Positions 11,348 to 43,218 of a DNA stretch of 43,218 nt are shown here, one piece after another. Each line of letters begins with the position of its first letter. The stretch's first letter is position 1. This stretch comes from a virus. The stretch covers positions 1-43,218 of IMG/VR virus record IMGVR_UViG_3300047445_000240. One strand, written 5' to 3'. Both the position numbers and the translations under genes were made by a program. A model generated the notes under the pieces. It made no database searches, was not told where the DNA came from, and saw nothing but the letters and a program-made list of their open reading frames with translations.

Positions 11348-13248
11348 CGGTTGCTCATGGGCAGGTTGAGCTGTTCGGCTTCCTCGATCGCCGCCGGTAC
11401 GTCGATGACGACGCCGATCGGCACCACCACTGACCACTCGCCCGGCCCGTCATAGCGCACCTTCTTGCGCCCCACGGCGCCGGGCACCAGCGCCAGCGCT
11501 TGGTTCCACGTGCCGCTGCGCCAGGTCGACTTGTCGAACACCGCCAGCATTGCTTGGTTCGATTTGTTGGCGACCGACAGATAGGCCTTCTCGACCGACG
11601 TCGGCCGGTCAAGGATCCCGCCAGCGCCGTTGTCCTTCTCGTGGTCTGGCGCCAGCCCGACGATGCGCAAGCCATGGGTGCGCAGCTTGGCCTTGGCGCC
11701 GCTGTCCGTGCCGTTGAGCAGGTCGATCAGCGCCCGCGTAATCCAGCGGCCGATATTGATCTGATGTTCGCCGGGCTTGGCGGTCAGCGTGGCGCTGGTC
11801 AGCCATTTCAGGCAGCGTTCGGTCGTATCCTCGGCCTCGGCGCGCGCCCGGTGCAGGATCGTGCTCAGGTCCCGCACGCGGGTGATGCAGCGCAAATCCT
11901 CATCCGTCACCGGGTCGGGGCTCATCTCGTTGGGATGCGCGGGCGCCTGATCGTGCAGCAACAGGTCGCCGCACGCGAGCAGCGTCCCGTATGTGTCCTG
12001 CTCGCGCCCGTTATAGCCCTGGGTCAGCATCGCGGCCTGATACGCGGCCAAGGTGGCGTCGTAGCGATGCCATTGCTCGATCAGGCGCCGGCGCAACTGG
12101 TTGCCCCACGCCTTAAGCGTGCTGGGCAGCATCAGCGATTTGGTCTTTGGCGGAAACTCGCGAAGGTTGAGGATCGCCATGCGGTTGCGATCCTGCGCGG
12201 GCAGCTCGTGATGGTGGATCGACGAAAACAGGAAGCACGATCGCGCGACGAATTGCTTGGCCTTGTGATCCTGACTGCCACGCATCGCGCCGCCACCCGA
12301 ATAGGCGAGCCGCGCCAGCTTCACGATCTTCATATGCGCTTCGCCGTTCGCTTCGTCGGGCTCGATTTCGTCGAACATCACCGCCAGCGTGTCCTGGTCG
12401 AGCAGCTGGCGCACGCCCGCCTCGGTCGCGTCCTCGGTAAACACGCCCCAATCGCCCATGACTTCGCGCAGGAATTGCTGCAGCGTCGTCTTACCGGCAC
12501 CGCTCGGCCCGGTGATCCATACGTGCGGACGGTGCCGGATGGCGCCGCCCAGCGTCGCCGCCGCGATCCAGCACAGCAACAGCCAGCCATCGGTTTCGCC
12601 ATTGCGCCAGCGCCACGTGTTGAGCAGCGCCAGCACTTGCTCGCCGATATGGATCGGCGCTGGGCTGTCGTCGGGCCGCGACAGTTCGGGGTGCGCTGGA
12701 TAGACGTAACCGCCGATCAGGCCGGGCTGGAAAAACTGGCTCTTGAGCACGTTGTTCCGCGTGCCGCGCTTGCCTCCGATCAGGATGGTTGACCCGCAAT
12801 GCAGGATCAGTTCGCCATCCGGTCCGCGATGGGCGCCGCGGCCGCGCACCTTGCCTTGCGGGTCGAACAATCCCTTGCGCGCGCACCATACGATTAGGTC
12901 GCGCTGAGACTCTTTCTGATCGAAGCCGGTGATGATCCATTCGACCTCGCCGGTTTTCTTGTCGGTCACCTGTTTCTTGGTCGGCCATTTCGCGTTGAGC
13001 CAGTGCTGGCGCGTGCCGAACAGCGCCATCACCTCGCCCTTGCGCATTTCGGTGCCCAGCTCGATCAGTTGCTTGGCATGGTCGAGGAAATAGGTGCGCT
13101 GCTTTAGGAAGCCGAGCGGCTCGATCGGGCAATCCTTGGGCGGTCCCTTGACGTCATATTCGGCGCCGGGCTCGCCATCTGGCGCGCGAAAGTCCGGTGC
13201 GTCGTGCGGCGCGTCGATCGCGGCGCCGATATCGTCGTCGGCGTTCAT
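11344..13248 (-). CDS. P-loop helicase/ATPase for replication
   Basis: A 634-residue protein. It contains a Walker A motif GPSGAGKTT (residues 247-255) and a Walker B LAVMFDEIE (288-296), followed by a region that may carry the sensor (CFLFSSIHHHELP). This fits superfamily 3-like or AAA-type helicases encoded beside phage primases. The start ATG at 13248 (MNADDDIGAA) overlaps the upstream stop by ATGA; the upstream in-frame extension is Arg-rich shadow sequence. It is the last gene of the leftward replication operon, with the Toprim primase two genes upstream. Confidence 0.85.
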   Translation of the reverse strand: MNADDDIGAAIDAPHDAPDFRAPDGEPGAEYDVKGPPKDCPIEPLGFLKQRTYFLDHAKQLIELGTEMRKGEVMALFGTRQHWLNAKWPTKKQVTDKKTGEVEWIITGFDQKESQRDLIVWCARKGLFDPQGKVRGRGAHRGPDGELILHCGSTILIGGKRGTRNNVLKSQFFQPGLIGGYVYPAHPELSRPDDSPAPIHIGEQVLALLNTWRWRNGETDGWLLLCWIAAATLGGAIRHRPHVWITGPSGAGKTTLQQFLREVMGDWGVFTEDATEAGVRQLLDQDTLAVMFDEIEPDEANGEAHMKIVKLARLAYSGGGAMRGSQDHKAKQFVARSCFLFSSIHHHELPAQDRNRMAILNLREFPPKTKSLMLPSTLKAWGNQLRRRLIEQWHRYDATLAAYQAAMLTQGYNGREQDTYGTLLACGDLLLHDQAPAHPNEMSPDPVTDEDLRCITRVRDLSTILHRARAEAEDTTERCLKWLTSATLTAKPGEHQINIGRWITRALIDLLNGTDSGAKAKLRTHGLRIVGLAPDHEKDNGAGGILDRPTSVEKAYLSVANKSNQAMLAVFDKSTWRSGTWNQALALVPGAVGRKKVRYDGPGEWSVVVPIGVVIDVPAAIEEAEQLNLPMSNR

Positions 13249-14120
13249 ACTCCACACATCCCGCCGCAAGCACCGGCCCAACCAAGCAGCTGCCCTTGCC
13301 TTGCTGCGATCTCCTCGTCGAAATCGATCTCGCCTAACGGCCGCAAACTGTCGTGAAGGAAGGCCTCGCCCCTGACGTTTCGCAGGCCGCGGCGTATGAG
13401 CTTGTCGACCTCTACGGCGCGCGCAAAATCGTCGGGGTGGTCGCGCTGCATATGGAGCCATTCAACGTTAGAGCGGAAAGGGCAGCTTATGCAGCCTGAG
13501 TGCCCGAAGCGGATCCCGTATTCCTCAAACAGCCATGTTTCACATTCCCAGCGAGTCCATCCGATCTCGCAAAGAGGATGTCGGTGATATATCCAGGGCT
13601 CACGAGCGGGCGCCATGCGGTGCGCTTCGTCGATCGTGATGCCAATCCAAAGCTCAACGATGGGGTGCTTGGGTATTCGCGCCCGGCGGTCGATCCCCAA
13701 CAGATCGCGGCATTTGCGCTGCACCGGCCGTATCTTGTAGTCGCGCGTGCAACTTCGGTTGAGAATGCCGCGTGTTCCGTCTGGGTTGCGTACGTAGAAC
13801 GGCGGGTTCGGGAAGCGCGCTGCTTCGCCTGCAATTGCTCGCCGTAGATCTGCCGATAGATCGCCCCCCACTGCCTCCTCCAAGGCAAATGGCGGCCGCA
13901 TGTTGTCGGACCGCAACCAACGCATATTCTCGGCTGAGCTGGAACGTTCATCGCCGGTTTGCGCGTCGATCGCCACATCCGGCATTGGGCCTAGCAGGCC
14001 GCGAGCCGCCATTAGGATCAATGTGATCGATTGTACGCCCATGCCGTTGCTGATCGCGACTAGGCGCGCGTCCGGCAACGGCGAAGAAAGACTAGGATAC
14101 AAGTTTGGCAAGGCGCTCAC
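13245..14120 (-). CDS. PAPS-reductase-like (PP-loop) protein
   Basis: A 291-residue protein. The start is the GTG at 14120, overlapping the primase stop as GTGA with GGGGGTGG upstream. The N-terminus has the adenine-nucleotide alpha-hydrolase signature (LVAISNGMGVQS, residues 20-31, a variant of SxGxxS) followed by the DAQTGDE strand. A C210-x-x-C213 pair (SGCISCPF) could bind metal or an iron-sulfur cluster. Related phage proteins are annotated as PAPS reductase or DndC-like. There is no obvious phosphorothioation partner here, so the substrate is unknown. Its location inside the replication operon suggests a role on DNA or nucleotides. Confidence 0.75.
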   Translation of the reverse strand: MSALPNLYPSLSSPLPDARLVAISNGMGVQSITLILMAARGLLGPMPDVAIDAQTGDERSSSAENMRWLRSDNMRPPFALEEAVGGDLSADLRRAIAGEAARFPNPPFYVRNPDGTRGILNRSCTRDYKIRPVQRKCRDLLGIDRRARIPKHPIVELWIGITIDEAHRMAPAREPWIYHRHPLCEIGWTRWECETWLFEEYGIRFGHSGCISCPFRSNVEWLHMQRDHPDDFARAVEVDKLIRRGLRNVRGEAFLHDSLRPLGEIDFDEEIAARQGQLLGWAGACGGMCGV

Positions 14121-15250
14121 GCCACCCCCTTCGGCTTGCCGCACAGCCAATCGTTGAAATCCTTGAACTCGGCCGGCGGAAAGATCGTCTGCACGTGCCG
14201 TCCGGCTTGTTGCTGCCGCTGCACCACGCGCTCGAACGCGGCGATCGCCGGGCTGTCGGTGTCGTCGTTCTGGCCGATCAGCACCAACGGCCCCATGCCA
14301 TCGGGCAGCACCAGTCCGCCCATATTGCCGAGCGACACGCCCGCGACGACGCGCAAGGTCGGCCGCTTGAACGCGATAGACAGCCCGTCCTCGATCCCTT
14401 CCGACAGATAGACGGGCGTGCCGGGCGCCAGCTTGTGCAGCGTTTCGGGCCGTTCGCCCTTCCACAGCGGGATATGGCCGCCCGAAAAGCGGCCGAGCGA
14501 CGATTTGTGCGATTTGAGCTTGCCGCTCGACGGGTCGCGGATCTTGACCACCTTCACCGGACCGCTCTTGTCGCGGTGCGACCAACCCGAAATATCCAGA
14601 TAGGTGCGGTGCGTGCCGACATGCACGCCGTCGCGGATGATCGCCGCCAGCATCGCCGGCACCTTGGCGCGGCGCTCGGCGCACCACACGTCGGGACGAT
14701 AGCGCAGCGATCCCGGCGCCTTGCCCAATTGCTCGAGGTCGATGCCGCGCCCCTGCAGGTAGGACGCGGCCGGGGTGCGGGGGATTCCGTCCGCGTCGCG
14801 CCACAGCTGCCACGCGCGGTCGCGCTTGGCCGCTTCCTCGCGCGCGGCGTCGTCGATCGCCTTGGCTTGGCGCTCGGCGATATCGCGTTGCACCGTCTTG
14901 AGCCGCTCGGGCGGCAGATCGTCGAAGCCAAGAAACGATTTTGCCCAGGCGAAGGCCTGTGACCGCGCATCCTTGCCGCGCGACCAACCGCCGAACAGCA
15001 CCATGCAAACCAGCTTGATCAGGTCGCCGCCGCGTTCGTCGGTGCCGTCCGGCGCCGAAAAGTCGGTCCATAGCCCCTGATTGTGCCCGGTGCGGTTGAC
15101 CTTGAGGCTTTGGCCCGGCTCATTGTCGACCGACCCGATCAGCCAGAAACGCCGATCGCACCGTGCCGCGCTCAACAGCTTCGGTACGACGGTGTCGACG
15201 CGCGCGTTTAGCGCCGTGGCGATTTCGGCTTCGCTGATCCCCCCGGACAT
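14117..15250 (-). CDS. Toprim-domain DNA primase
   Basis: A 377-residue protein. The C-terminal Toprim domain has the glutamate motif YLSEGIEDGLS (E284) and the acidic motif LIGQNDDTD (about 329-332) that bind Mg2+ for primer synthesis. The N-terminal region (residues 55-110, WTDFSAPDGTDERGGDLIKLV) resembles the DNA-binding part of phage primases; I see no clear four-Cys zinc ribbon. The middle is a charged helix (120-150). It would work with the downstream helicase at the phage fork. The start ATG at 15250 has a weak ribosome site. Confidence 0.85.
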   Translation of the reverse strand: MSGGISEAEIATALNARVDTVVPKLLSAARCDRRFWLIGSVDNEPGQSLKVNRTGHNQGLWTDFSAPDGTDERGGDLIKLVCMVLFGGWSRGKDARSQAFAWAKSFLGFDDLPPERLKTVQRDIAERQAKAIDDAAREEAAKRDRAWQLWRDADGIPRTPAASYLQGRGIDLEQLGKAPGSLRYRPDVWCAERRAKVPAMLAAIIRDGVHVGTHRTYLDISGWSHRDKSGPVKVVKIRDPSSGKLKSHKSSLGRFSGGHIPLWKGERPETLHKLAPGTPVYLSEGIEDGLSIAFKRPTLRVVAGVSLGNMGGLVLPDGMGPLVLIGQNDDTDSPAIAAFERVVQRQQQAGRHVQTIFPPAEFKDFNDWLCGKPKGVA

Positions 15251-15280: not shown

Positions 15281-15754
15281 TCATGACGCCGGCGTCTTCA
15301 AAAAAACCAACCAATGCGTCTTGGCCGCTCGGCCAGATTGGTGCCCAAAAAGGGGCTTCTCGGGGGTCATCGCGAGAACCGTTTTCAGCGGCACCCGATG
15401 CTCGTTCCACTTGAAGATCAAGGTTCCGCCGACGCGTAATACCCGAAAGCATTCCGCGAAACCTAAGGTGATCTGGTCACGCCAGCCTGGCTCTAGCCGT
15501 CCGTATTTCTGTGCCATCGCGCTGTTGGCGCCGTTGAAGGTGTGCGGCGGATCGAAAACGACAAGCGAGAAGGTGCCGTCCGCGAAAGGCAGCGCGGTAA
15601 AGTCCCCAAGCACGTCGGGATCGATTACGACCTCTCGCCCGCGCGGGTCGGTGCAGACCTCACGACGCTTGTCTAGAAACAGCGCACGGGCATCTGCTTT
15701 GTCGAACCAAAACATTCGCGCCCCGCAGCAGGCATCAAGCACTTCGGCCTTCAT
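15281..15754 (-). CDS. SAM-dependent DNA methyltransferase (small)
   Basis: A 157-residue class I methyltransferase. An N-terminal SAM-binding motif (VLDACCGARMFWFDK, residues 5-19) and the catalytic DPPH (68-71, in LVVFDPPHTFNG) are present, as in amino-methyltransferases acting on DNA; GGTLIFKW follows near residue 110. The start ATG at 15754 overlaps the Cro-like stop by ATGA; the upstream in-frame extension is shadow sequence. It is short, with no separate target-recognition domain, so specificity may be low. It probably protects phage DNA or modifies it during replication. Confidence 0.8.
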   Translation of the reverse strand: MKAEVLDACCGARMFWFDKADARALFLDKRREVCTDPRGREVVIDPDVLGDFTALPFADGTFSLVVFDPPHTFNGANSAMAQKYGRLEPGWRDQITLGFAECFRVLRVGGTLIFKWNEHRVPLKTVLAMTPEKPLFGHQSGRAAKTHWLVFLKTPAS

Positions 15755-16059
15755 TCCGCCGCCACCGCGTCGAGCGCCTTGAAAAACTTCCCCTCGCGGT
15801 CGCGCAAGCGCGGCAGCTTGTAGAAATGGTCGGGCCGCACCTGCCCCCTGGTGAACACGAAGATCTTCACCATGTTGCGCGGGTCCGGCATCTTGAACTC
15901 CTGCGATCCCGGCTGCATTTCCCACGCTCGCCACACCGGTTGCGCCACCCCGAATTCACGGCAGGCGCGCGCCTGGGTCAGCGTTTCCGGCTCTTTGGTC
16001 CGGTGGTTGAGCCGCCGTTGCGTCTTGCGCCAAGCGGCCAGGGGCGTTTCGGTAACCAT
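15751..16059 (-). CDS. Cro-like helix-turn-helix regulator
   Basis: A 102-residue basic protein. Residues 27-47 (LTQARACREFGVAQPVWRAWE) form a helix-turn-helix typical of Cro and bacterial HTH regulators. It is the first gene of the leftward replication operon and is transcribed away from the XRE repressor, the classic cro position. The ATG at 16059 has no ribosome site and lies only about 2 bases after the predicted transcription start, so the mRNA may be leaderless. It could compete with the repressor for the same operators. Confidence 0.75.
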   Translation of the reverse strand: MVTETPLAAWRKTQRRLNHRTKEPETLTQARACREFGVAQPVWRAWEMQPGSQEFKMPDPRNMVKIFVFTRGQVRPDHFYKLPRLRDREGKFFKALDAVAAE

Positions 16060-20006: not shown

Positions 20007-20200
20007 GCGATACCGCCATCGAACAGGCGCGAGTGTTCATCGCTCAGGCACTCAACGGCGCGGCCAGGGCCACAGCCGACCCTGAGAGTTCAACCTACCG
20101 GCGCGACCTCGCCGCGCGGATTGCTGACGCCAAGCCGTGCCTGATCCCGTCATGGCTGGTGCTCGATATCGTCGCGGCCGCGCTCGGGCGCGCACAATGA
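20003..20200 (+). CDS. Small protein (65 aa), unknown
   Basis: A 65-residue, helical, Ala-rich protein (MSDTAIEQARVFIAQALNGA...) coupled by ATGA to the upstream gene and to the methyltransferase that follows. No motif is recognised. Its place directly before the methyltransferase could mean a partner role, but nothing in the sequence shows it. Confidence 0.55.
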   Translation: MSDTAIEQARVFIAQALNGAARATADPESSTYRRDLAARIADAKPCLIPSWLVLDIVAAALGRAQ

Positions 20201-20874
20201 CCGACCTGCTCGGCGCCCTTGCTCCCGATCAGCCGACCGGCCTGGGCACCGCCATGGCCGGCGGCAAGGGCAAGCTCAATCTCGACAAGACGGCGCGGCG
20301 CGATGCCGATTATTACCCGACGCCGCACGATGCCACCCGCGCCTTCCTGATCGCGGAGGCCGAGCATATCCGCCGCCACGCCCTGCCGGTGTGGGAATGC
20401 TGCGGCAGAGGCGGCGCGATCGCCGCGGTGCTGGCGCAATTTGACTTCGACGTGATCGCCACCGACATCGTGGAGGATCCCGCCAACCTGGTCGCGCAAC
20501 TCGACGTGCTGCGCGCGATGCAATTGCTGGGTATCCCGCTGACCAACCCGCCGTTCGCGTTGGCCGGTCAAATCCTCGACGTGCTGCTCGGCCGCCTCGG
20601 CGCGCCCTACGTGGCGATGCTGCTCAAGAGCACGTTCTTTTCGACCGATACCGAGACGCGCGGCCAGCTCGGCCGCTACCGCGCTTATGGCCCGCCGCTC
20701 AAATACGACATGACCTGGCGCGTCGATTTCACCGGCGGCGGACAGTCGACCATGAACTGCAGCTGGTTCGTGTGGGACCGCAACCGCCCCGACATGATGG
20801 GCCGCTGGTGCCTGCTACAGCGCGACGGCGTCGTGACGCCGGGCACCGATCTTTTCACCCAGGGAGGGCAATGA
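20197..20874 (+). CDS. DNA adenine methyltransferase
   Basis: A 225-residue protein. The N-terminal YYPTPHDATRAFL (residues 39-51) and the SAM-site equivalent VWECCGRGG (65-73) precede the catalytic NPPF (117-120). This order and the NPPF motif fit phage N6-adenine methyltransferases. ATDIVED (88-94) supplies the acidic residue that binds SAM. It is a second, unrelated-looking methyltransferase besides the one in the replication operon. It likely modifies phage DNA to evade restriction, or host DNA in the lysogen. Confidence 0.85.
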   Translation: MTDLLGALAPDQPTGLGTAMAGGKGKLNLDKTARRDADYYPTPHDATRAFLIAEAEHIRRHALPVWECCGRGGAIAAVLAQFDFDVIATDIVEDPANLVAQLDVLRAMQLLGIPLTNPPFALAGQILDVLLGRLGAPYVAMLLKSTFFSTDTETRGQLGRYRAYGPPLKYDMTWRVDFTGGGQSTMNCSWFVWDRNRPDMMGRWCLLQRDGVVTPGTDLFTQGGQ

Positions 20875-22528: not shown

Positions 22529-23830
22529 ATGAAGCCGACCCGCCGACCCAAGCCCAAGGTGCACGACACCTATATGTCGTGGCAGGCCCGCGCCGATGGC
22601 GGCTGGACCGCGCATTGGAAGCCGAGCCCGCGCCTGCGCCGCCTGGGCTGGACCAACCTCGAGCTGGGTGACGACAGCGATACCGTCGCTGCGCTGACCG
22701 CCTGCGTTGCCCGCAACAAGCTGGTCGACGGCACGATCGGCGCGATCGTCATCGCGGCGCCGGCCGGCGACCGGATCGAGACGTTCGGCCAGCTCGCCCG
22801 CAAGTTCCAGACGTCGGCGGGCTTCACCGACCTGGCGCCGTCGACCCAAAAGAATTACCGCTCCTATCTGCGCATGCTCGAAACCTGGGCACAGGACGGC
22901 AAGCTGTTGCTCAGCCAGCTCAACCGGCAAATGGTGCTCGATTTTGTCGAAATCCTCGAAACGGACTCGCGCCGCACGCGCACCAAGCAGCTGCTCGCCG
23001 TGCTGGGCGTGCTGATGCAATATGCGGAGGACAAGGGCTACATCACCGCCCATCCGGCCCGCAACCTGCGCGTCGCCAGCCCGAAGCCGCGCGATCGGCG
23101 CCTGTTGCGCGACGAATTGCCGTTGCTGGTCGAAACGGGCCGGACGCTCGGCCATCGCCACGTCGCGATCGGTGCCGTGCTCGGCTTCTACACGATGCAG
23201 CGCGAAGGCGATCTGCTCGCGGTCACCAGCTTCACCATGCGCGGCATCGACGATATCAGCGGCGACGCGCGGCGCGCGCTGAGCGACGAACGCGGCCACG
23301 TCGTCGGCCTGTTCCTCGAACAGGAAAAGACCAGGACGCCGGTCGGCATCCCGCTCGCGCCGATCGCGCGCGAGGCGGTGCGCGATGCGATTTCGGCCCC
23401 GCGGCAGGGGCGCGTCGGCGGAACGCACATCATCGCCGACCCGCAAACCGGCCTGGAATGCCCGGAATGGCGGTTCCAGCGCGATTTCCGGGCCGTCGTG
23501 GTACATTTGGTCAAGGACCTGCGCTGGCGCGCCCACAGCGCCACGCTGCGCCAGGAGCACAGCGAGGCGGACCGGCTCAACCGGCTCGCCGATCGCTATG
23601 ACGGCATCCAGTTCCGCGACCTGCGCCGGTCGGGCATGTGCTGGATGCGCGACCTGGGCGCCTCGATCCCGATGATCGCCGCCATCAGCGGCCACTCGAT
23701 CGCCGAGACAACCAAGATCCTCGATACCTACATGCCCCGCGATATCCGCATCGCGGCCGAAGGTATGGCACTGGCGGTCACCCGCCAGGCCGAACGCGAC
23801 GCAGCGGACGCGCAGGAAGGGCAGGGATGA
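22529..23830 (+). CDS. int: Tyrosine-recombinase integrase
   Basis: A 433-residue site-specific recombinase for prophage integration. It has an N-terminal arm-binding region, a SAM-like core-binding domain (about 85-180, STQKNYRSYLRMLETWA) and the catalytic domain. Catalytic residues visible are R225 (MQREGDLL), R366 within FRDLRRSG (the usual box-II His is replaced by Arg), H389 (GHS) and the nucleophile Y401 (ILDTYMPRD). It is the last sizeable gene of the plus-strand operon, next to the candidate attP. Its C-terminal coding end is duplicated 242 bases downstream. Confidence 0.92.
   Translation: MKPTRRPKPKVHDTYMSWQARADGGWTAHWKPSPRLRRLGWTNLELGDDSDTVAALTACVARNKLVDGTIGAIVIAAPAGDRIETFGQLARKFQTSAGFTDLAPSTQKNYRSYLRMLETWAQDGKLLLSQLNRQMVLDFVEILETDSRRTRTKQLLAVLGVLMQYAEDKGYITAHPARNLRVASPKPRDRRLLRDELPLLVETGRTLGHRHVAIGAVLGFYTMQREGDLLAVTSFTMRGIDDISGDARRALSDERGHVVGLFLEQEKTRTPVGIPLAPIAREAVRDAISAPRQGRVGGTHIIADPQTGLECPEWRFQRDFRAVVVHLVKDLRWRAHSATLRQEHSEADRLNRLADRYDGIQFRDLRRSGMCWMRDLGASIPMIAAISGHSIAETTKILDTYMPRDIRIAAEGMALAVTRQAERDAADAQEGQG
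23791..23826 (+). repeat. Direct repeat, copy 1 (end of integrase)
   Basis: A 36-base sequence encoding ERDAADAQEGQG at the integrase C-terminus. Copy 2 is at 24033-24068, with two mismatches. Both copies are in the reading frame of the gene they end. The repeat unit with the intervening gene is 242 bases. Confidence 0.85.
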
Positions 23831-31086: not shown

Positions 31087-31273
31087 GTCCCGCCCCCATC
31101 GTGACGCCTTGCGTCATGCGGGCAGCGAGCGGGGGCGAAGGCGCCGACTGCCTGATGGGCGGCACTCTTAGCCGATTGATGAAATCATCGGCAAGTAATT
31201 TCGCCATCCGCTAAATGTGATTTTGGCGAGGGCTCGTGCTATTTCTTGCGCTTCGCTATGCGAGGGGGCGACG
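31087..31273. promoter_or_regulatory. Divergent region with operator and leftward promoter
   Basis: This 187-base gap separates the leftward tailspike gene and the rightward membrane-protein gene. It holds an operator TTCGC-CATCC-GCTAA (31200-31214), the same one-base variant as at the capsid promoter, and a lone half-site TTAGC at 31168. On the minus strand ATCACA (31220-31215) and a -10 near ATTACT flank the operator, as in the other promoters. No convincing rightward promoter is visible for the membrane-protein gene, but the palindrome could serve both directions. Confidence 0.5.
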
Positions 31274-31462
31274 TTGAACGAGGTTGAGCCGGCAAACGAC
31301 TTGTCGAGTTTCTACGACACTAACGACCTCTCAGCCCTGCCGACCGCCACGGCGAGCGACGTACCGCGGCCGGCGAGCATCATGCCTGCGATCATCGCCA
31401 GCGCTGCCGTGCTGCTGACCCTGGCTCTGTTCGTGGCCGTCTATCTGCGCCGCGGCCGCTAG
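31274..31462 (+). CDS. Membrane protein sharing a peptide with the virion transglycosylase
   Basis: A 62-residue protein on the opposite strand to all surrounding genes. The TTG start at 31274 has GAGGGGG about 5 bases upstream; a longer reading to ATG 31217 is possible. Residues 13-26, FYDTNDLSALPTAT, match FYDTSDLSALPTAT near the start of the transglycosylase (33960-36635), while the DNA differs at many synonymous positions. A single membrane helix (about 35-57) ends in RRGR, suggesting N-terminus out. Its stop shares the palindrome CTAG with the neighbouring stop. Possible lysogenic conversion or exclusion gene. Confidence 0.65.
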   Translation: MNEVEPANDLSSFYDTNDLSALPTATASDVPRPASIMPAIIASAAVLLTLALFVAVYLRRGR

Positions 31463-33963
31463 GGCACCCTGTTCTCGGCCCCCAACGCATTCGACGGATT
31501 CGGCGCGCGGGTTGGCGTCGGGTTGCCCGGCTCCCACCACATGCCTTGCCCGTTCTGCGCCGCCCACTGCCGCACGCGCTCCTCGCGCATCGCATAATCG
31601 GGGTCGATCTCGTGCGCGAGCTGGTCCATCACCATGTGCTCGAACGCGGCGCGCCAATACCAGAGGTTGGTGCCCGGCGTGTAGCGCTTGCCCAGCTTGA
31701 CGATCGCCGCGCCGGGATTGCCCGGACGAACATCGCCGCTCGGGCTGGTGTGCGGCAGCGAACTGGTGACCGCGCTTTTCACGTCGCTGGCGACGCTGAC
31801 CATCGGCCCGCCGAAAAACTCGCCGATGCTGCCGATCCGGCTATCGGTCGCGGAATTGAGCAGGTCGCCGATGATGCCGATCCCGCCGCCTTGCAGTGCC
31901 GCCTTCTCCCAATAGTCCTTGGTGTCCATCGGCACCAGGTCGCGGCCCTTGGCCAATTCGCGCAGCTGGATCGTCAGCGCGCCGAACATCGTCATGCCGA
32001 TGAAGAACCGCGCGGTATAGGCCATCTTGTTCGACAGGCTCGGCAACAACGCGATCTGCTGTGCCTGTTGCATCATCAGGCCGACCGAGAAGGAGCGGAA
32101 CTGCACCGAATTGGTCAGCACCTCGCGCGACCACGTGCCGGGCCGCGCTCCGCCGGTGAACAGCGCGCGCGTCGTCGCCGTCGCCTCGGGCACCGCCATG
32201 GCCGTCGTGCGCAGGACAAGGTCCATCAGCCGTTCGCCGGCCTCGCGATCGATCGCGCGGACATTGGGCGGGGATACGAACGCCGCACCGCGCGCCGTTT
32301 CCGGCTCGGCCTTGCGGATGCTGTCCCACATCGCGGACGTGATCCCGGTTTCTTCCATCTTGCCGCGCAAATTCTTGTCGAGCGCATCGAACGCGACCCC
32401 GCGATTGGCGCCCAGCTCGCCCAGGAAGTCGACCCCCAACGCGCGCTGCCCGCCCTCGGTCAGGGCGTTCAGGCCCGACAGGCGCAGCACGTCGTCGGCG
32501 ACGACCGCCGTCCATCCCGGCCGGTCGGCGATCGATCCGAAATAGCGCGATGCCGCAAGCAGGGTATGGCTGGCGTTGCGCGCGCCCAGTTCGAGCCGCA
32601 CCGCCAGCTCGCGATCGGCTGCCGATGCCGGATTGAGCTGGCGGAGATAGCTCATCATGACCTTGCTGGTCGGCAGACCGGCCATCCGCCGCGCCATGAC
32701 TTGCGTATAGGTGTCGCTGATCGCTGAAAGTGGCGCCGAGCCGAGCATCGACGCCGTGATCAGGTTGCGCGTGCCCTGCAGCGTCTTGGTCACCGCGACG
32801 GGCGGTCCCGCCAGCCAGCTTTCCGGCTCGACCGGCGTGTTGAGGTCGCCGCGCTTGTACCGCCACAATTGCTCGGTCGCCCAGCGCTCGCCGCTCGTGC
32901 CCGATGCCGCGCGCGATATCTTGGTATCGGCCTGGGCGTCGCCGCGATCGGCGTGATCGAGCAGGTAGCGCATCGTGGCATCGGGGTTGGGGCCGAGTCG
33001 CTCCATCGTCGCGCTATCGTCCGCCATGCCGCGAATATGATGCATCACGACACTGAACGGGTCGCCGTCGCCGAGCTTGTCGTGCACGCGCAGCCAGGCA
33101 TCGGCGTCCTTGAAGTGCAGGAATCGCGTTTCGGCGCGCTGGTTGGCCAGCATGCCGCCGGCACTGAACGCCCCGCTCGCTTCGCCGGTCAGTCCCCCGG
33201 TGCGGATATTCTCGTAGGTCGCGCGCATCGCCTCTTCGAGCCGCTCGGCCGTCAGCTCGCCGCCGCTGATCGGATCGCGCATCCGCGAAACGTCCAGCTC
33301 CGGCAGCATGACGGCGCGGAACGCTTCATAGCCGGCCTCGCCGCGGCCAAGCGCGCGAACCTTGGTGGTGCTCCACCGGTGCGGGAAATAATTGTCGAGC
33401 TTGCCGATCGCGCCGCCCGCCGCGTTGAAGCGCAGGCGCATATCCTCGAACACGTCGCGCACCGCGCCCGCGAACGTCGCCGCGCGCGGGTTGCCGGTAC
33501 TGTCGCCGTGCATCTCGCGCACGAAATCGAGCAGCCCGGCCTTGTCGCTTGCGCTGCCGACGAAGTTGCGGCGATGGCGCTGGATGAAGTCGCTGATCCG
33601 GGCATGCGCCTGGAATTCGATCTGCTCGGTTCGGCGCGTGATATTCTCGTACGGCGCGCGCAGATCGTCGTCGAGCATCGCCCGGATCGCACCATAGGTC
33701 GACTTGCCTTTGTAACGGCCTAGGTCGCTCAACGCTCGCTCGCGCGCGGCGATCGACAGCAGGGTCTGGCGTTCCTTCAATGCCGCTTCGGCCGCCAGCT
33801 GCGCGAGCGTCGCTTCGCTGGCCTGGGCCGACGCCGCCGCCGGGGCCATGCTCATACGGTAATGGCGTTCGAGCTGGTCGAACAGCTTCGCCATCCGTTT
33901 CGCGCGCGCCTTGTCGATCTCGCCACGCTCGACCATGCCCGGAATGCAGTTCTTCAGGCTCAT
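31459..33963 (-). CDS. Large internal virion (ejection) protein
   Basis: An 834-residue protein, last of the block of internal virion genes and overlapping the transglycosylase gene by ATGA. It is mostly helical: N-terminal coiled coil (DQLERHYRMSMAP, AALKERQTLLSIAARER), then long helices throughout, with FQAHARISDFIQRHRRNFVG near residue 118. It contains a hydrophobic stretch in the C-terminal third (ARFFIGMTMFGALTIQL). By position it corresponds to the last large ejection protein of T7/BPP-1-like phages, which helps build the DNA channel across the envelope. Confidence 0.75.
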   Translation of the reverse strand: MSLKNCIPGMVERGEIDKARAKRMAKLFDQLERHYRMSMAPAAASAQASEATLAQLAAEAALKERQTLLSIAARERALSDLGRYKGKSTYGAIRAMLDDDLRAPYENITRRTEQIEFQAHARISDFIQRHRRNFVGSASDKAGLLDFVREMHGDSTGNPRAATFAGAVRDVFEDMRLRFNAAGGAIGKLDNYFPHRWSTTKVRALGRGEAGYEAFRAVMLPELDVSRMRDPISGGELTAERLEEAMRATYENIRTGGLTGEASGAFSAGGMLANQRAETRFLHFKDADAWLRVHDKLGDGDPFSVVMHHIRGMADDSATMERLGPNPDATMRYLLDHADRGDAQADTKISRAASGTSGERWATEQLWRYKRGDLNTPVEPESWLAGPPVAVTKTLQGTRNLITASMLGSAPLSAISDTYTQVMARRMAGLPTSKVMMSYLRQLNPASAADRELAVRLELGARNASHTLLAASRYFGSIADRPGWTAVVADDVLRLSGLNALTEGGQRALGVDFLGELGANRGVAFDALDKNLRGKMEETGITSAMWDSIRKAEPETARGAAFVSPPNVRAIDREAGERLMDLVLRTTAMAVPEATATTRALFTGGARPGTWSREVLTNSVQFRSFSVGLMMQQAQQIALLPSLSNKMAYTARFFIGMTMFGALTIQLRELAKGRDLVPMDTKDYWEKAALQGGGIGIIGDLLNSATDSRIGSIGEFFGGPMVSVASDVKSAVTSSLPHTSPSGDVRPGNPGAAIVKLGKRYTPGTNLWYWRAAFEHMVMDQLAHEIDPDYAMREERVRQWAAQNGQGMWWEPGNPTPTRAPNPSNALGAENRVP

Positions 33964-36635
33964 GCGCCACCTCCCGGCACCATGCAGCGGCGCGCTGCCT
34001 CGATCGCGGCCTTGTCGCCGTCGATATCGTCCAGCACCTCGCGGATCGTCCGCGCCGGCGCCTCATCGGTCGCGGGTGAAAACAGCGCATCCGGCTCCTG
34101 TTCGAGCCGCATGTCGACGTCGTGGCGGATACTCTCGATCGTGCGTTCGGCGCCGTTGCCCTGATGCGCCTCGTCGAACGCGCTCAGACCGGCCGGTTCG
34201 CGTCCAGAAGCGCTTTCCAGCGCAAGCTCTGTGTCGCCGAGTCCCGGATGGGCTGGCTCAGCGTCGAGTCCTGCTCCGCTTTCGTCAGCAGGTCCGCGCG
34301 AAACCCCGTGCGCTTGTTCGTCCCCGAAGCCGGGGAGATAGTCGATTGTGTACTCATAGGGTTTCCCTCCGTCCTGTGCCGCGCGGGCCAGCGTCGCGTC
34401 GTGGCGGGCATAGACCGCCTGCTCGAAGGCGTCCCACGGCTCGCTTCCATCCGTGATCCGCGCCAGCACGTCGTCGAACAATTCCGGCTCGGCCTGGCGG
34501 TCGATGCCCAGCCCCTCGGCCGTGCGCTCGGCATAGCCGGTATCCTCGGCCAGCTGGCGCACCCGCGCGCGCTCGACCATATTGGCCTGGTCCGCCAGCG
34601 GATAGATCTTCTCGCGGCCATTGACCGCGCGCTCCAGCATATCGAGGACATCCGCCGTGGTCGGGCGGTCCGCGAAATAGCCGGCTTCGTGCAACAGCTC
34701 GCCCGCCGTATCGATCGACATGCCGCTTTTGCGCACGAGCCGTCCCGATCCATAGGCGAAGGCCTGCCCCATGTCGCGCCCGCCCTGGCCGCTCCGCGCC
34801 AGCGCGTGGCCCTCATTGTCGGCAACACCGCCGCGATCGGCGAGGAACTCGACCACGTCGCTCGGCTGGGTGCGTACCGGGAGCGACCGCGCGCCGCGGC
34901 GCGGCGCCGGGGCGAGGTCAGGCAACATCGGTTGGTCGATCGTCGACGGCGCCGAAGATTCCCAAGGCGTCAGCGCGGCCTCGTTATCGCCAGCGCGGGC
35001 CTCATTGCGTGCCATCTCCGCGAAATCCGGCGTGTCGGGCGCATCGACCGCTGCGTTCTTCCGCGCGACGACGGCGCGGGTTGCTTCGTCCGCGTCGACC
35101 TGGGCCTGTGCCGTCCGCCAATCATCGTCGGTCGCGAAGCTGCTTCGATCGAGCACCGGCCCGGCATTGCCGCCGCTGCCGCCCATCTTGCGGTCCGCCC
35201 AGTCGACCAGCTCGCCGACCGTCGTGATGCGGTTTTTGGCGTTGGCGCCGAACAAGGCCGGATTGGCCTTGATCGATCCCGCGCGCATCACCGTTTCGAT
35301 CGGGGCATCGCGTGACGCGCTGAGCAGCTTGATGCCGTCTTCCTGCCCCGCGAAATGGAGCAGGTAGAGGTTGCCTGCCGTCTGGCGGATCCCGCTGCGC
35401 GCCAGCGCGTTCGAATTCTCGCGCAACAGATCGTCGACCAGCGTTTCCTGCGTCCCGCCGTCCGCGCGCTTGGCATAGATATCGGCATCGGTCAGGCCAC
35501 CGCGTCCGTAGCGCTGCAGATAGAGCCGCTTCCAGGTGCCCTTGGTGAATTGATAGCGGCCATAGGCTGACGACGTCGTCGCGCCTGCGGCATCGTTTCC
35601 GCCGGACTCCGCCGATCGGATCAGGCTCTTCACCTGCTCGCGTGGCGCCATCGCCGGATTGACCGATGGCACGTCGGCCGTCGCCGCGACCGGCATGTCC
35701 GGCAGGCTTCCCACCGGCGCGCCCAGCTCGGCCGCTTTCAGTGTCGCCTGCATCCGCGCGTAATGGGCGTCGCTGCCGGCGCCGGGACCAAAGGGATTGG
35801 CGGCATCGATCGTCGCGTCGCGCGCCGCCATGTCCGTCGCACCGCGTTCGGCTTCGGTCATGCTGGCAACGGGGACACGAGCGCGGAACGCTGATCCGAT
35901 CCCTTCGACCGTGCCCTGCACGCCAGCGCCGATCAGACCGGCTACGCCGATATTGGTGGCCATTTCGCCGGCCGTCATCGTCTGGCCCAGCTCGGCACGA
36001 TTGGCGGCGATCTGCGGCTGAAGCGCGGCGGTGACGCCCATGTTCACCGCGCCCTCGCTCAGGATCCGTCCAACCACGGTACGGCCACCCAAACCGCCAG
36101 CGAACAGGCCCGCCGTCGTGGTCGGCGCGTCACCGGCCAGCACGGGGGCGATGCCTTGTTCATAGGCCCCGCCCAGGAATCCGACCGTGCCTTGCCAAAA
36201 GCCTCGGCTGCGGCTCATCGTCTCTTGGGCTTTGGCGATGGCGACCTTGTCGCGGTCGAGCGCCTTGGCGTAGAGATCGTCGCGGTCCTTGCCCGCCACA
36301 TCGAGCATGAAGCCGGGATCGGTCTTTCGCGCGTCGTTGATCATGTACCAGACGCGCTTTTCGGCCAGGTCCGTGTCCAGTTCGATCGACGGGTTATAGA
36401 GCTTCTGAAACCACCATTTGCCGTCGTTCAGCTTCTCGACGATCGGCGCGTACATCCGGTCGAGGCGCTGGCGCTGGGTATCTTCGCGATCGCCCGACGC
36501 GGCAACGCGCGACGCCGCCCATATATCGCTGGTCGTGGCCGGCTGGTCGGCAACCGTGGCGGTCGGCAGCGCCGACAAGTCGCTCGTGTCGTAAAAGTCG
36601 CTGATCGAGCGGGCCTGCCCGCCGGGTCCGCTCAT
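33960..36635 (-). CDS. Internal virion protein with lytic transglycosylase
   Basis: An 891-residue protein. The start ATG at 36635 overlaps the upstream stop by ATGA. The N-terminus contains FYDTSDLSALPTAT (residues 14-27), the peptide shared with the lone membrane protein at 31274-31462. The lytic transglycosylase domain (about 335-470) has the SAESGG motif with catalytic E343 and AYGRYQF; it cuts a local hole in peptidoglycan during DNA ejection, as in T7 gp16. The C-terminal half is helical and disordered in parts. It is flanked by other internal virion genes. Confidence 0.85.
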   Translation of the reverse strand: MSGPGGQARSISDFYDTSDLSALPTATVADQPATTSDIWAASRVAASGDREDTQRQRLDRMYAPIVEKLNDGKWWFQKLYNPSIELDTDLAEKRVWYMINDARKTDPGFMLDVAGKDRDDLYAKALDRDKVAIAKAQETMSRSRGFWQGTVGFLGGAYEQGIAPVLAGDAPTTTAGLFAGGLGGRTVVGRILSEGAVNMGVTAALQPQIAANRAELGQTMTAGEMATNIGVAGLIGAGVQGTVEGIGSAFRARVPVASMTEAERGATDMAARDATIDAANPFGPGAGSDAHYARMQATLKAAELGAPVGSLPDMPVAATADVPSVNPAMAPREQVKSLIRSAESGGNDAAGATTSSAYGRYQFTKGTWKRLYLQRYGRGGLTDADIYAKRADGGTQETLVDDLLRENSNALARSGIRQTAGNLYLLHFAGQEDGIKLLSASRDAPIETVMRAGSIKANPALFGANAKNRITTVGELVDWADRKMGGSGGNAGPVLDRSSFATDDDWRTAQAQVDADEATRAVVARKNAAVDAPDTPDFAEMARNEARAGDNEAALTPWESSAPSTIDQPMLPDLAPAPRRGARSLPVRTQPSDVVEFLADRGGVADNEGHALARSGQGGRDMGQAFAYGSGRLVRKSGMSIDTAGELLHEAGYFADRPTTADVLDMLERAVNGREKIYPLADQANMVERARVRQLAEDTGYAERTAEGLGIDRQAEPELFDDVLARITDGSEPWDAFEQAVYARHDATLARAAQDGGKPYEYTIDYLPGFGDEQAHGVSRGPADESGAGLDAEPAHPGLGDTELALESASGREPAGLSAFDEAHQGNGAERTIESIRHDVDMRLEQEPDALFSPATDEAPARTIREVLDDIDGDKAAIEAARRCMVPGGGA

Positions 36636-38692
36636 CGCCACGGCACCTTCGCGGCGTCGAACACGAACTTGTCGCTCTTGTTGGACGGGAGGTAGTTCCC
36701 GCTCGGCAATCGCAGCACGTAGCGCGTGCCGCCGACGCTGACGGGCACAAGGTCGCGGATTTGGTCGAGCGTGACGGGCGCACCGCCTGGCCAAATCGGC
36801 GTGCCGGTCAGGCTGGCCTTGTTCCAATCCTGCGGCGTCGCGCGCGCGAGCCGCTTGAACAGGCCTTCTCCCGTCCAGCCGGGCGGCAGGATCACCCGTT
36901 CGCCCTTGTACGTCGCGGTGCCGCCATAGGTGATACCGTCCTGCACATAGCTGCCGTTCGACGCCTCGACCGCCTTGCGGAACTCGTTTTCATCCCATTG
37001 CGTGCGGCCGCTCGCCGTCATCCGCGCCGCATAGATATCCTTGGCGGCTTCCAGCCGGTCCGCCGCATAATCGGGCGGCATGCCGACGGTCGATTTCAGA
37101 TACTCGCCGAAAATGCGCTTGGCCGGCGCATCGGCAAAGACCTTGGGATTGGCCTTGAGCGCCTCGGGACCGCGCAGGATGTCGCGCGCGGCGTCCGTGC
37201 CGCCGGGCAATGTGTAATAGGCCGCCGCGACGCGGAACCCCCGATCGTCATTCCCCGCGATCTGGCGCGCCGCGCCCTCGATCGCGCGTGGGTCGGCGAA
37301 CGCGCTGATCGTCTCCAGCGCCCTGAGCTTCTGCGTCGTGTCGCCCTTCATCATCGCCTGTAGGCCGGGCAGTTCGGCGTCGGTCAGCGGTTCGACGGTG
37401 AAGCGGCCATAGCTCCGCGCGGCACCGGCCGCGAGCTGGGCACGCGCGCGCATCGTCGCGGGATCGCTCGGATCGATCGGCGCGAGCGTCTGGCCGGTCG
37501 CGAACACATATTGCTTGAGCGCTCCGCCTGGGCTGTTGAGCCGCTGCGCGGTCTGCTCGCGCAATGTCTTGAGCCCATTCAAGGTCGATGCCTGTTTCGG
37601 CGTCAGCTTGCCCGTGCTTCCAACCGCCTGCAACTCGCCGATTTGCTGGTCGAGCTGCGGCAACGGGAGGTTGCGGTATTGCATCGTCGCCGTCATCTCG
37701 GCGCCCTTGGCGCGGGCGCTCGCCGCCGACGACGTGTCGCCGACTTTCTCGTACCCCTGCGCGAGCGCTTCCCAATCGCCCGGCGAACCCGCGCCGGTGT
37801 CGAGGTTGACCTTGACCGTCGCCAGCCCCTCTTTCGCCGCGGCGACACCCGCCGCCGCCTGCGCCCGCGCCGCCGCCGCCTGGCGGTTCTTCTCGACCTG
37901 AGCCTCGCCGATCAGCGCGTCGGACACTTTCGGGCCGAGTATGGTGGCAAAGGTCGGATCGCGCGCGATCGCCATCGCTTCGTCCGGATTGCGCTCGGTT
38001 ACCCCTTGCACATACGAACGCACCAGCGTGCCGGACCATTCCTGATAGGCCTTGTTCTGCCAATCCGCGCCGCCCGGCATGTTGGCGACGCTCGTGCGCA
38101 GCTCTTTCAGCCGCCCGATCAGCGAATCGCCCTTGCCGCCCGCCAGCCCGTCCGCGCGCGCCAGCGCCGCCTGGGTATCGACGGCCGTGGCGGCATCGGC
38201 CTGCACCCGCGAAATGCCGGCGCTGAGTTCGGTCAGCTGCGCATCGCCGACGATGCGCGCCTGCGGCTCGGCGATCTGCGCGATCGCGCGGGTCCGCACG
38301 CGCGGGCTGGTGACGCCGGACATCAGCGTGTCGACGCCCTTGTCCCAATAGTCACTGACCGCTTGCGCGTGGCCTTCCGCGCCCGGCTGGTCGTTCGATG
38401 CCAGCCGCGCGGCCGCGTACGTCCGCGTATCGGCCTCCAATTTGGCGAGTCCGGCCGCGAGCGTGGCGCCTTGCTGCAGATCATCCTGCTGATCCTTGAT
38501 CAGCTGGGTCTGATGATCGATCTGGTCGACGCGCTGCTGACTGTCGAGATGCGCCATGCGCGATCGAAACAGTTGGTCGCCGGCCTGGGCGAAATCGTTC
38601 GCCAGCCCTACGCCCGATGCGTTGGGGTCGGGCTGGGCCAGCGCGATCGATCGCGGACCGCCCTGCGGCTGATAGGTTGGCGGCAGCGCCAT
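36632..38692 (-). CDS. Internal virion protein (gp15-like)
   Basis: A 686-residue, mostly helical protein (QRVDQIDHQTQLIKDQQDDL; ADTRTYAAARLASNDQPGAE). Its size, composition and position between the small internal protein and the transglycosylase fit T7 gp15, a tube-forming ejection protein. The start ATG at 38692 shares a base with the upstream stop. No enzymatic motif is visible. Confidence 0.75.
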   Translation of the reverse strand: MALPPTYQPQGGPRSIALAQPDPNASGVGLANDFAQAGDQLFRSRMAHLDSQQRVDQIDHQTQLIKDQQDDLQQGATLAAGLAKLEADTRTYAAARLASNDQPGAEGHAQAVSDYWDKGVDTLMSGVTSPRVRTRAIAQIAEPQARIVGDAQLTELSAGISRVQADAATAVDTQAALARADGLAGGKGDSLIGRLKELRTSVANMPGGADWQNKAYQEWSGTLVRSYVQGVTERNPDEAMAIARDPTFATILGPKVSDALIGEAQVEKNRQAAAARAQAAAGVAAAKEGLATVKVNLDTGAGSPGDWEALAQGYEKVGDTSSAASARAKGAEMTATMQYRNLPLPQLDQQIGELQAVGSTGKLTPKQASTLNGLKTLREQTAQRLNSPGGALKQYVFATGQTLAPIDPSDPATMRARAQLAAGAARSYGRFTVEPLTDAELPGLQAMMKGDTTQKLRALETISAFADPRAIEGAARQIAGNDDRGFRVAAAYYTLPGGTDAARDILRGPEALKANPKVFADAPAKRIFGEYLKSTVGMPPDYAADRLEAAKDIYAARMTASGRTQWDENEFRKAVEASNGSYVQDGITYGGTATYKGERVILPPGWTGEGLFKRLARATPQDWNKASLTGTPIWPGGAPVTLDQIRDLVPVSVGGTRYVLRLPSGNYLPSNKSDKFVFDAAKVPWR

Positions 38693-43071: not shown

Positions 43072-43095
43072 GGGGCCGCCCCGAAGAGCGGCCCC
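43072..43095 (-). terminator. UUCG-capped hairpin after the capsid gene
   Basis: GGGGCCGC (43072-43079) pairs perfectly with GCGGCCCC (43088-43095). On the minus-strand RNA the stem extends by a G-U and a C-G pair to a C(UUCG)G loop, giving 10 bp. It starts about 8 bases after the capsid stop. No U-tract follows. It may protect the capsid mRNA from 3' decay or reduce read-through into downstream genes. The loop equals that at 4109-4136. Confidence 0.55.
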
Positions 43096-43102
43096 GCCCC
43101 CG

Positions 43103-43218
43103 TCAGCTTTCCAGACAGAGCATCTGGTAGCATTTGTCCTCGTTGAGCCGCGTGAAGGCCGCCGTGGTGCGGGCATAGACCTGCCAGTCGAACTCCTTGG
43201 TCGACTCCTCGGTGACGC
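43103..43218 (-). CDS. Partial capsid gene, right-hand copy
   Basis: The end of the capsid gene repeated at the contig end (same sequence as 12-127). It is a consequence of the 127-base end overlap, not a second gene. Confidence 0.9.
   Translation of the reverse strand, partial: VTEESTKEFDWQVYARTTAAFTRLNEDKCYQMLCLES

Follow-up and report, generated by a model that had tools for sequence, protein, structure and literature searches.

A small membrane protein that shares the N-terminal peptide of its phage's own ejected transglycosylase: a candidate superinfection exclusion decoy

In a temperate podophage, a small membrane protein encoded opposite to the late genes carries, ahead of its membrane helix, a copy of a peptide from the N-terminus of the ejected lytic transglycosylase (TG) of the same phage, and in a second, independent lineage the equivalent protein carries a different peptide that matches the TG of that lineage. 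We give slightly better than even chances to the explanation that the small protein is a prophage-encoded superinfection exclusion protein, in which the self-peptide is tethered as a decoy. That such a decoy would block superinfecting relatives is suggested by the position of the gene (on the opposite strand and, in the Sphingomonadales prophage G354, adjacent to attR) and by analogy with P22 SieA. No description of such a mimic was found in the open-access papers searched.

The window, that is, the whole stretch of 43,218 nucleotides that was analysed (IMGVR_UViG_3300047445_000240), comprises the complete genome (43.2 kb) of a temperate podophage. Its ends are identical over 127 bp (1-127 and 43092-43218), which indicates that the record is a circularly assembled complete genome, and the integrase gene indicates that the phage is temperate. 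The late genes of the minus strand encode, in order, two tail proteins, a 176-aa internal protein, a 686-aa protein, TG, an 834-aa protein and the tail fibre. The relevant features are the following.

22529..23830, plus strand: integrase
31087..31273, no strand: non-coding spacer that separates the tail-fibre gene from the small gene, with good conservation in the close relative L001
31262..31268, plus strand: ribosome-binding site AGGGGG, separated from the start codon by about 5 nt (AGGGGG-N5-start), kept in L001
31274..31462, plus strand: small membrane protein gene, 62 aa, TTG start; homologue at L001:15174-15416(-), analogue in G354 at L140:6065-6280(-)
31310..31351, plus strand: encodes the mimic peptide FYDTNDLSALPTAT (residues 13-26); one arm of the window's strongest inverted repeat
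31379..31456, plus strand: the only membrane helix (residues 36-61), with a basic end after it; core pLDDT about 93, N-tail net charge -5, C-tail +3
31459..33963, minus strand: 834-aa internal virion protein (phrog_684), convergent with the small gene
33960..36635, minus strand: TG, 891 aa; phrog_4067 (E 2e-18) and phiKZ gp144 structure 3bkh (E 2e-14, family profile)
36555..36596, minus strand: codons of the source peptide FYDTSDLSALPTAT, TG residues 14-27
36632..38692, minus strand: 686-aa protein, in the position of the T7 gp15-like tunnel protein by gene order against T7 (PMC8954989)

The copied peptide and the gene that carries it

The sequence-only reading of this genome had placed the peptide at residues 13-26 of the small protein and 14-27 of TG, and both copies are found there. 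They are equal at 13 of 14 residues, while 7 of the 42 nucleotides differ, 5 of these being synonymous, and the two DNA copies form the longest inverted repeat of the whole window (43 nt, 84%). Among all other sites in the six frames of the window, none matched more than 6 of the 14 residues. Aligned over about 29 residues, the N-termini of both proteins score 92, and none of 20,000 shuffles of the TG N-terminus reached this value, the maximum being 50. A chance match is ruled out by these shuffles, the genome-wide search and the locus screens described below.

The assignment of the 891-aa protein as a TG is sound, judging from the phrog_4067 and 3bkh matches and from a catalytic-type Glu343 that is invariant among 13-14 relatives. 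In its AlphaFold model, residues 1-35 are disordered (pLDDT below 50). The copied stretch corresponds to a conserved motif, about FYxxxxxxLPxA, present in approximately 11 TGs of the group (for instance, FY and LPxA-like elements are seen in FYDLDGPPTLPIA, FYELEGPPALPVA, FYSSDPNALPAA and LYSNDLSALPLM), and it is followed by a proline-rich linker and then by the first helix. A conserved motif, a linker and a disordered N-terminus are, together, the marks of a short docking motif.

The small gene sits between the 834-aa and tail-fibre genes, on the strand opposite to the late genes, and its stop codon overlaps that of the 834-aa gene (CTAG). Its promoter must be located in the spacer at 31087-31273. 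A scan of the window revealed neither a sigma-70 consensus promoter nor a consensus terminator for the gene. The spacer, of which the window has no second copy, is well conserved with L001 (e.g., CGCTAAATGTGATTT) and may be the site of an unusual promoter or operator. The gene had also been described as lying beside a repressor operator, a claim that is unsupported, as the window has a single copy of the palindrome CCGATTGATGAAATCATCGG, whose inner half L001 does not preserve.

AlphaFold models the small protein of the window as a disordered N-terminal tail plus one membrane helix, which bears out the membrane helix with a basic C-terminus expected earlier. The proteins of the window, L001 and G354 (62, 80 and 71 aa) have one helix each, with net charges of the N-tail and C-end of -5/+3, -3/+2 and -7/+3, respectively. 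Since the N-tails are acidic and the C-ends basic, the positive-inside rule predicts a periplasmic peptide in all three, and the N-out orientation proposed from the sequence is thus supported as a prediction from charge. None of the three proteins matched a named Pfam, PHROG or PADLOC family, their PHROG matches being limited to E 0.15-0.3 and to families of unknown function.

Relatives and a second, independent pair

The 834-aa protein served as a marker to collect relatives from phage records, Sphingomonadales genomes and IMG/VR (its family, phrog_684, is also present in phiV10-like and BcepC6B-like phages), and each TG N-terminus was compared with the small membrane ORFs of the same locus. 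The pair was found in 3 of about 110 screened loci, namely the window, L001 and G354, many of the loci being viewed only within 10 kb of the marker gene. The sequence-only reading had recommended looking in related phages for small membrane proteins that carry the N-terminus of their own TG, and the search has thus yielded one case with the same peptide type (L001) and one with a different type that matches its own TG (G354).

L001 is an IMG/VR contig whose TG is 85% identical to that of the window. In the same place it encodes an opposite-strand 80-aa protein with KARSLSDSYDTSDLSALPLATVADKP, and its TG has QARSLGDFYDTSDLSALPTATAADQP. Both phages have kept the ribosome-binding site and the greater part of the upstream spacer. 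Outside the peptide, the small protein has diverged in all but being a membrane helix. Over the 14 peptide codons, the small genes of the window and L001 show a pS of 0.88 and a pN of 0.17, and the TG genes a pS of 0.66 and a pN of 0; each small gene compared with its own TG gives a pS of 0.46 or 0.98 and a pN of 0.06 or 0.13. As synonymous sites are near saturation and the residues have been kept, the peptide is under selection as protein, in agreement with the previous suggestion that it is conserved for protein function. By these codon comparisons, the peptide copies are old and maintained as protein sequence.

The Sphingomonadales prophage G354 encodes a 71-aa opposite-strand membrane protein that carries VFDGYAPEPEGPVTISEGP, and its TG starts with VFGIYAPEPEAPVTASEGP. 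This peptide is unrelated to the window type, the TG start being VSGGGVFGIYAPEPEAPVTASEGPD and the small protein having NVFDGYAPEPEGPVTISEGPP ahead of its helix. Searched against the whole G354 genome, the small protein has one non-self match below E 0.01, which is its own TG (E 0.0011, 68% over 22 residues). The TGs closest to that of G354 share an N-terminal motif around FxxY, other than the FY and LPxA-like one. The prophage spans 38.4 kb and is bounded by identical 47-bp att repeats (972977-973023 and 1011375-1011421) that correspond to the 3′ terminus of a tRNA-Gly gene. The left end of the prophage carries an integrase-like gene.

1011064-1011279 of G354 (= L140:6065-6280(-)): small gene, the last gene of the prophage, 96 bp inside attR

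This gene faces endolysin and spanin-like genes, is followed by a terminator-like hairpin and has a TACAAT hexamer just upstream of its start. The last place before attR is a typical site of prophage-expressed genes.

The three phages represent two independent peptide types, since that of the window is also that of L001. Alignment scores are block-diagonal (window 92/94/19, L001 108/103/21 and G354 25/21/77): the TG type of the same lineage scores 77-108 and that of the other lineage 19-25. No other small membrane ORF in the approximately 110 loci exceeded 43 against its own TG. When small ORFs were compared with the N-termini of all large ORFs of the same locus, the three TG pairs were at the top (77-109), followed by a pair at 57; in this same-locus comparison, no other protein has its N-terminus copied as TG does. 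Phage and plasmid records, IMG/VR loci and extra Sphingomonadales prophages contained no further pair, exact motif scans of IMG/VR returned only the phages already identified, and a P0001 search of 295 genomes produced only weak matches (best E 0.012) that we read as noise.

The small gene is missing from nearly all relatives screened, with coverage limited in many of these loci to 10 kb around the marker. In the window and L001 it is an extra gene between the 834-aa and tail-fibre genes, where closer relatives have a short gap only. It is an accessory (moron-type) gene, inserted in the late region (window and L001) or located at the prophage end (G354), and absent from relatives.

A tethered decoy and its competitors

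In the explanation that we favour, the accessory gene of a temperate podophage would produce a one-helix inner-membrane protein whose periplasm-facing N-tail copies the disordered N-terminal docking peptide of the ejected TG of the same phage. During infection, an incoming TG would recognise a partner through its N-terminal peptide. The most probable partner would be a further ejection protein from the DNA tunnel across the periplasm (the 686-aa or the 834-aa protein), or else a host envelope factor; the 686-aa protein is a candidate from its place in the gene order. The tethered copy, probably expressed in the lysogen, would occupy this partner at the inner membrane, and tunnel assembly and DNA entry would fail for phages with the same peptide type. 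Counting against the decoy, the small gene of the window lies in the middle of the late region and does not adjoin the integrase, the pair is present in only two independent lineages among about 110 loci (many of them seen within 10 kb of the marker), and no consensus promoter was found for the gene of the window.

The strongest competitor, which we nevertheless consider unlikely, takes the peptide as a docking tag that would direct both TG and the small membrane protein to the internal virion core, from which the latter would be ejected along with the other proteins and help to anchor or open the tunnel in the inner membrane. In its favour, a packaged protein has this peptide as a conserved part of its N-terminus, podophages normally have membrane-spanning ejection proteins (PMC8954989), and the match between the peptide and the TG of the same phage would also be accounted for. 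However, all three phages transcribe the gene in the direction opposite to the late genes, that of G354 adjoins attR and has its own terminator-like hairpin, and its absence from nearly all relatives would be odd for a part of the virion.

Less likely still is a decoy that acts in the cytoplasm. If the N-tail were inside, it could bind the partners of newly made TG and either disturb the assembly of an induced or superinfecting phage or hold late proteins at the membrane. C-terminal helices with short basic ends are also found in bacterial proteins with the N-terminus inside, some tail-anchored proteins among them. Prophage proteins that block virion assembly exist as well, according to PMC10884400. 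Nevertheless, three acidic N-tails (-5, -3 and -7) and three basic C-ends (+3, +2 and +3) favour the N-out orientation, and TG-type domains of ejection proteins act in the periplasm.

We regard as a little more improbable than the cytoplasmic decoy that the tethered peptide binds not a phage protein but a periplasmic or inner-membrane host factor, used by TG as an entry receptor. P22 is known to need the host protein YajC, which SieA may occlude (PMC10883804), and a host target would also explain why the peptide is common to TG. In our case, lineages infecting related hosts differ in the peptide, as would be expected for a phage-protein partner that changes along with it, and no host target is known.

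Finally, a DNA feature without protein function (a recent duplication, gene conversion or an invertible segment) is hardly credible. In its favour, the two copies face opposite ways and no inverted repeat of the window is stronger. However, inversion, recent duplication and gene conversion are rejected on account of longest exact runs of just 16, 7 and 10 nt in the three pairs and by near-saturated synonymous sites with the residues kept, and of their occurrence in three phages with different spacing.

Known exclusion systems and wider implications

The blocking of the DNA injection of related phages by prophages is poorly understood, the specificity of P22 SieA being a stated puzzle. SieA, an inner-membrane protein of the P22 prophage, blocks DNA injection via the ejection proteins gp16 and gp20, where escape mutations lie (PMC10883804). 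Our small proteins would resemble it as inner-membrane proteins of temperate-podophage prophages, given the role proposed here. By contrast, SieA has about 162 residues and three helices, while the proteins described here have 62, 80 and 71 aa, one helix each and a copied TG N-terminus. We know of no report of SieA copying an ejection-protein sequence. Membership in the SieA family was rejected on account of the single helix, the length of 62-80 aa and the lack of named-family matches in Pfam, PHROG and PADLOC.

Another possible parallel is gp15 of the siphophage HK97, a small superinfection exclusion membrane protein that, in papers citing Cumby (2012 and 2015), is reported to be encoded by a moron gene among the late genes, to block DNA injection and to be linked to the tape measure protein. 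To our knowledge, it is not a copy of that protein. By analogy, the small proteins may act like P22 SieA or HK97 gp15, yet by sequence they are members of no known family.

SNIPE is a membrane nuclease that senses the entering phage through its injection protein, the tape measure protein, at the inner membrane (PMC13190303). In contrast to our case, it is a cellular nuclease system against siphophages with no mimic peptide, and there is no nuclease here. T7 places the TG domain of gp16 in the periplasm, as wings on the gp15 tunnel (PMC8954989): an ejected TG is set on a tunnel protein, at the step that the decoy would disturb. T7 differs in being lytic and in having no known tethered gp16 peptide.

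We propose more tentatively, with a confidence somewhat short of even, that these genes represent a new kind of exclusion protein, in which the docking peptide of the own TG is tethered as a decoy, the decoy sequence sets the phages that are excluded and TG N-termini diversify to escape. If true, the specificity of exclusion would be written in a peptide of 14-20 residues common to blocker and target, and it would be readable from sequence, swappable and directly testable. It would further direct attention to a docking step, unknown so far, in which ejected transglycosylases use their N-terminus, and exclusion genes could be sought by a simple rule, namely that a small membrane protein copies an ejection-protein N-terminus.

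Some minor observations were made along the way. Among the relatives of TG, the C-terminal half is variable (approximately residues 600-820) and includes a Pfam PBECR1-type nuclease domain in 2 of 13 members and a GNAT acetyltransferase in 2 of 13, which suggests that ejected proteins may carry swappable enzyme cargo. In the genome of Sphingomonas turrisvirgatae (G001:C6), two such prophages (L126 and L129) lie on one contig and have different TG N-termini. Additionally, the window encodes a PAPS-reductase-like protein (phrog_424) and two DNA methyltransferases (phrog_954 and phrog_799), at 13245-15071 (-), 15281-15934 (-) and 20137-20874 (+), which are possibly DNA modification genes.
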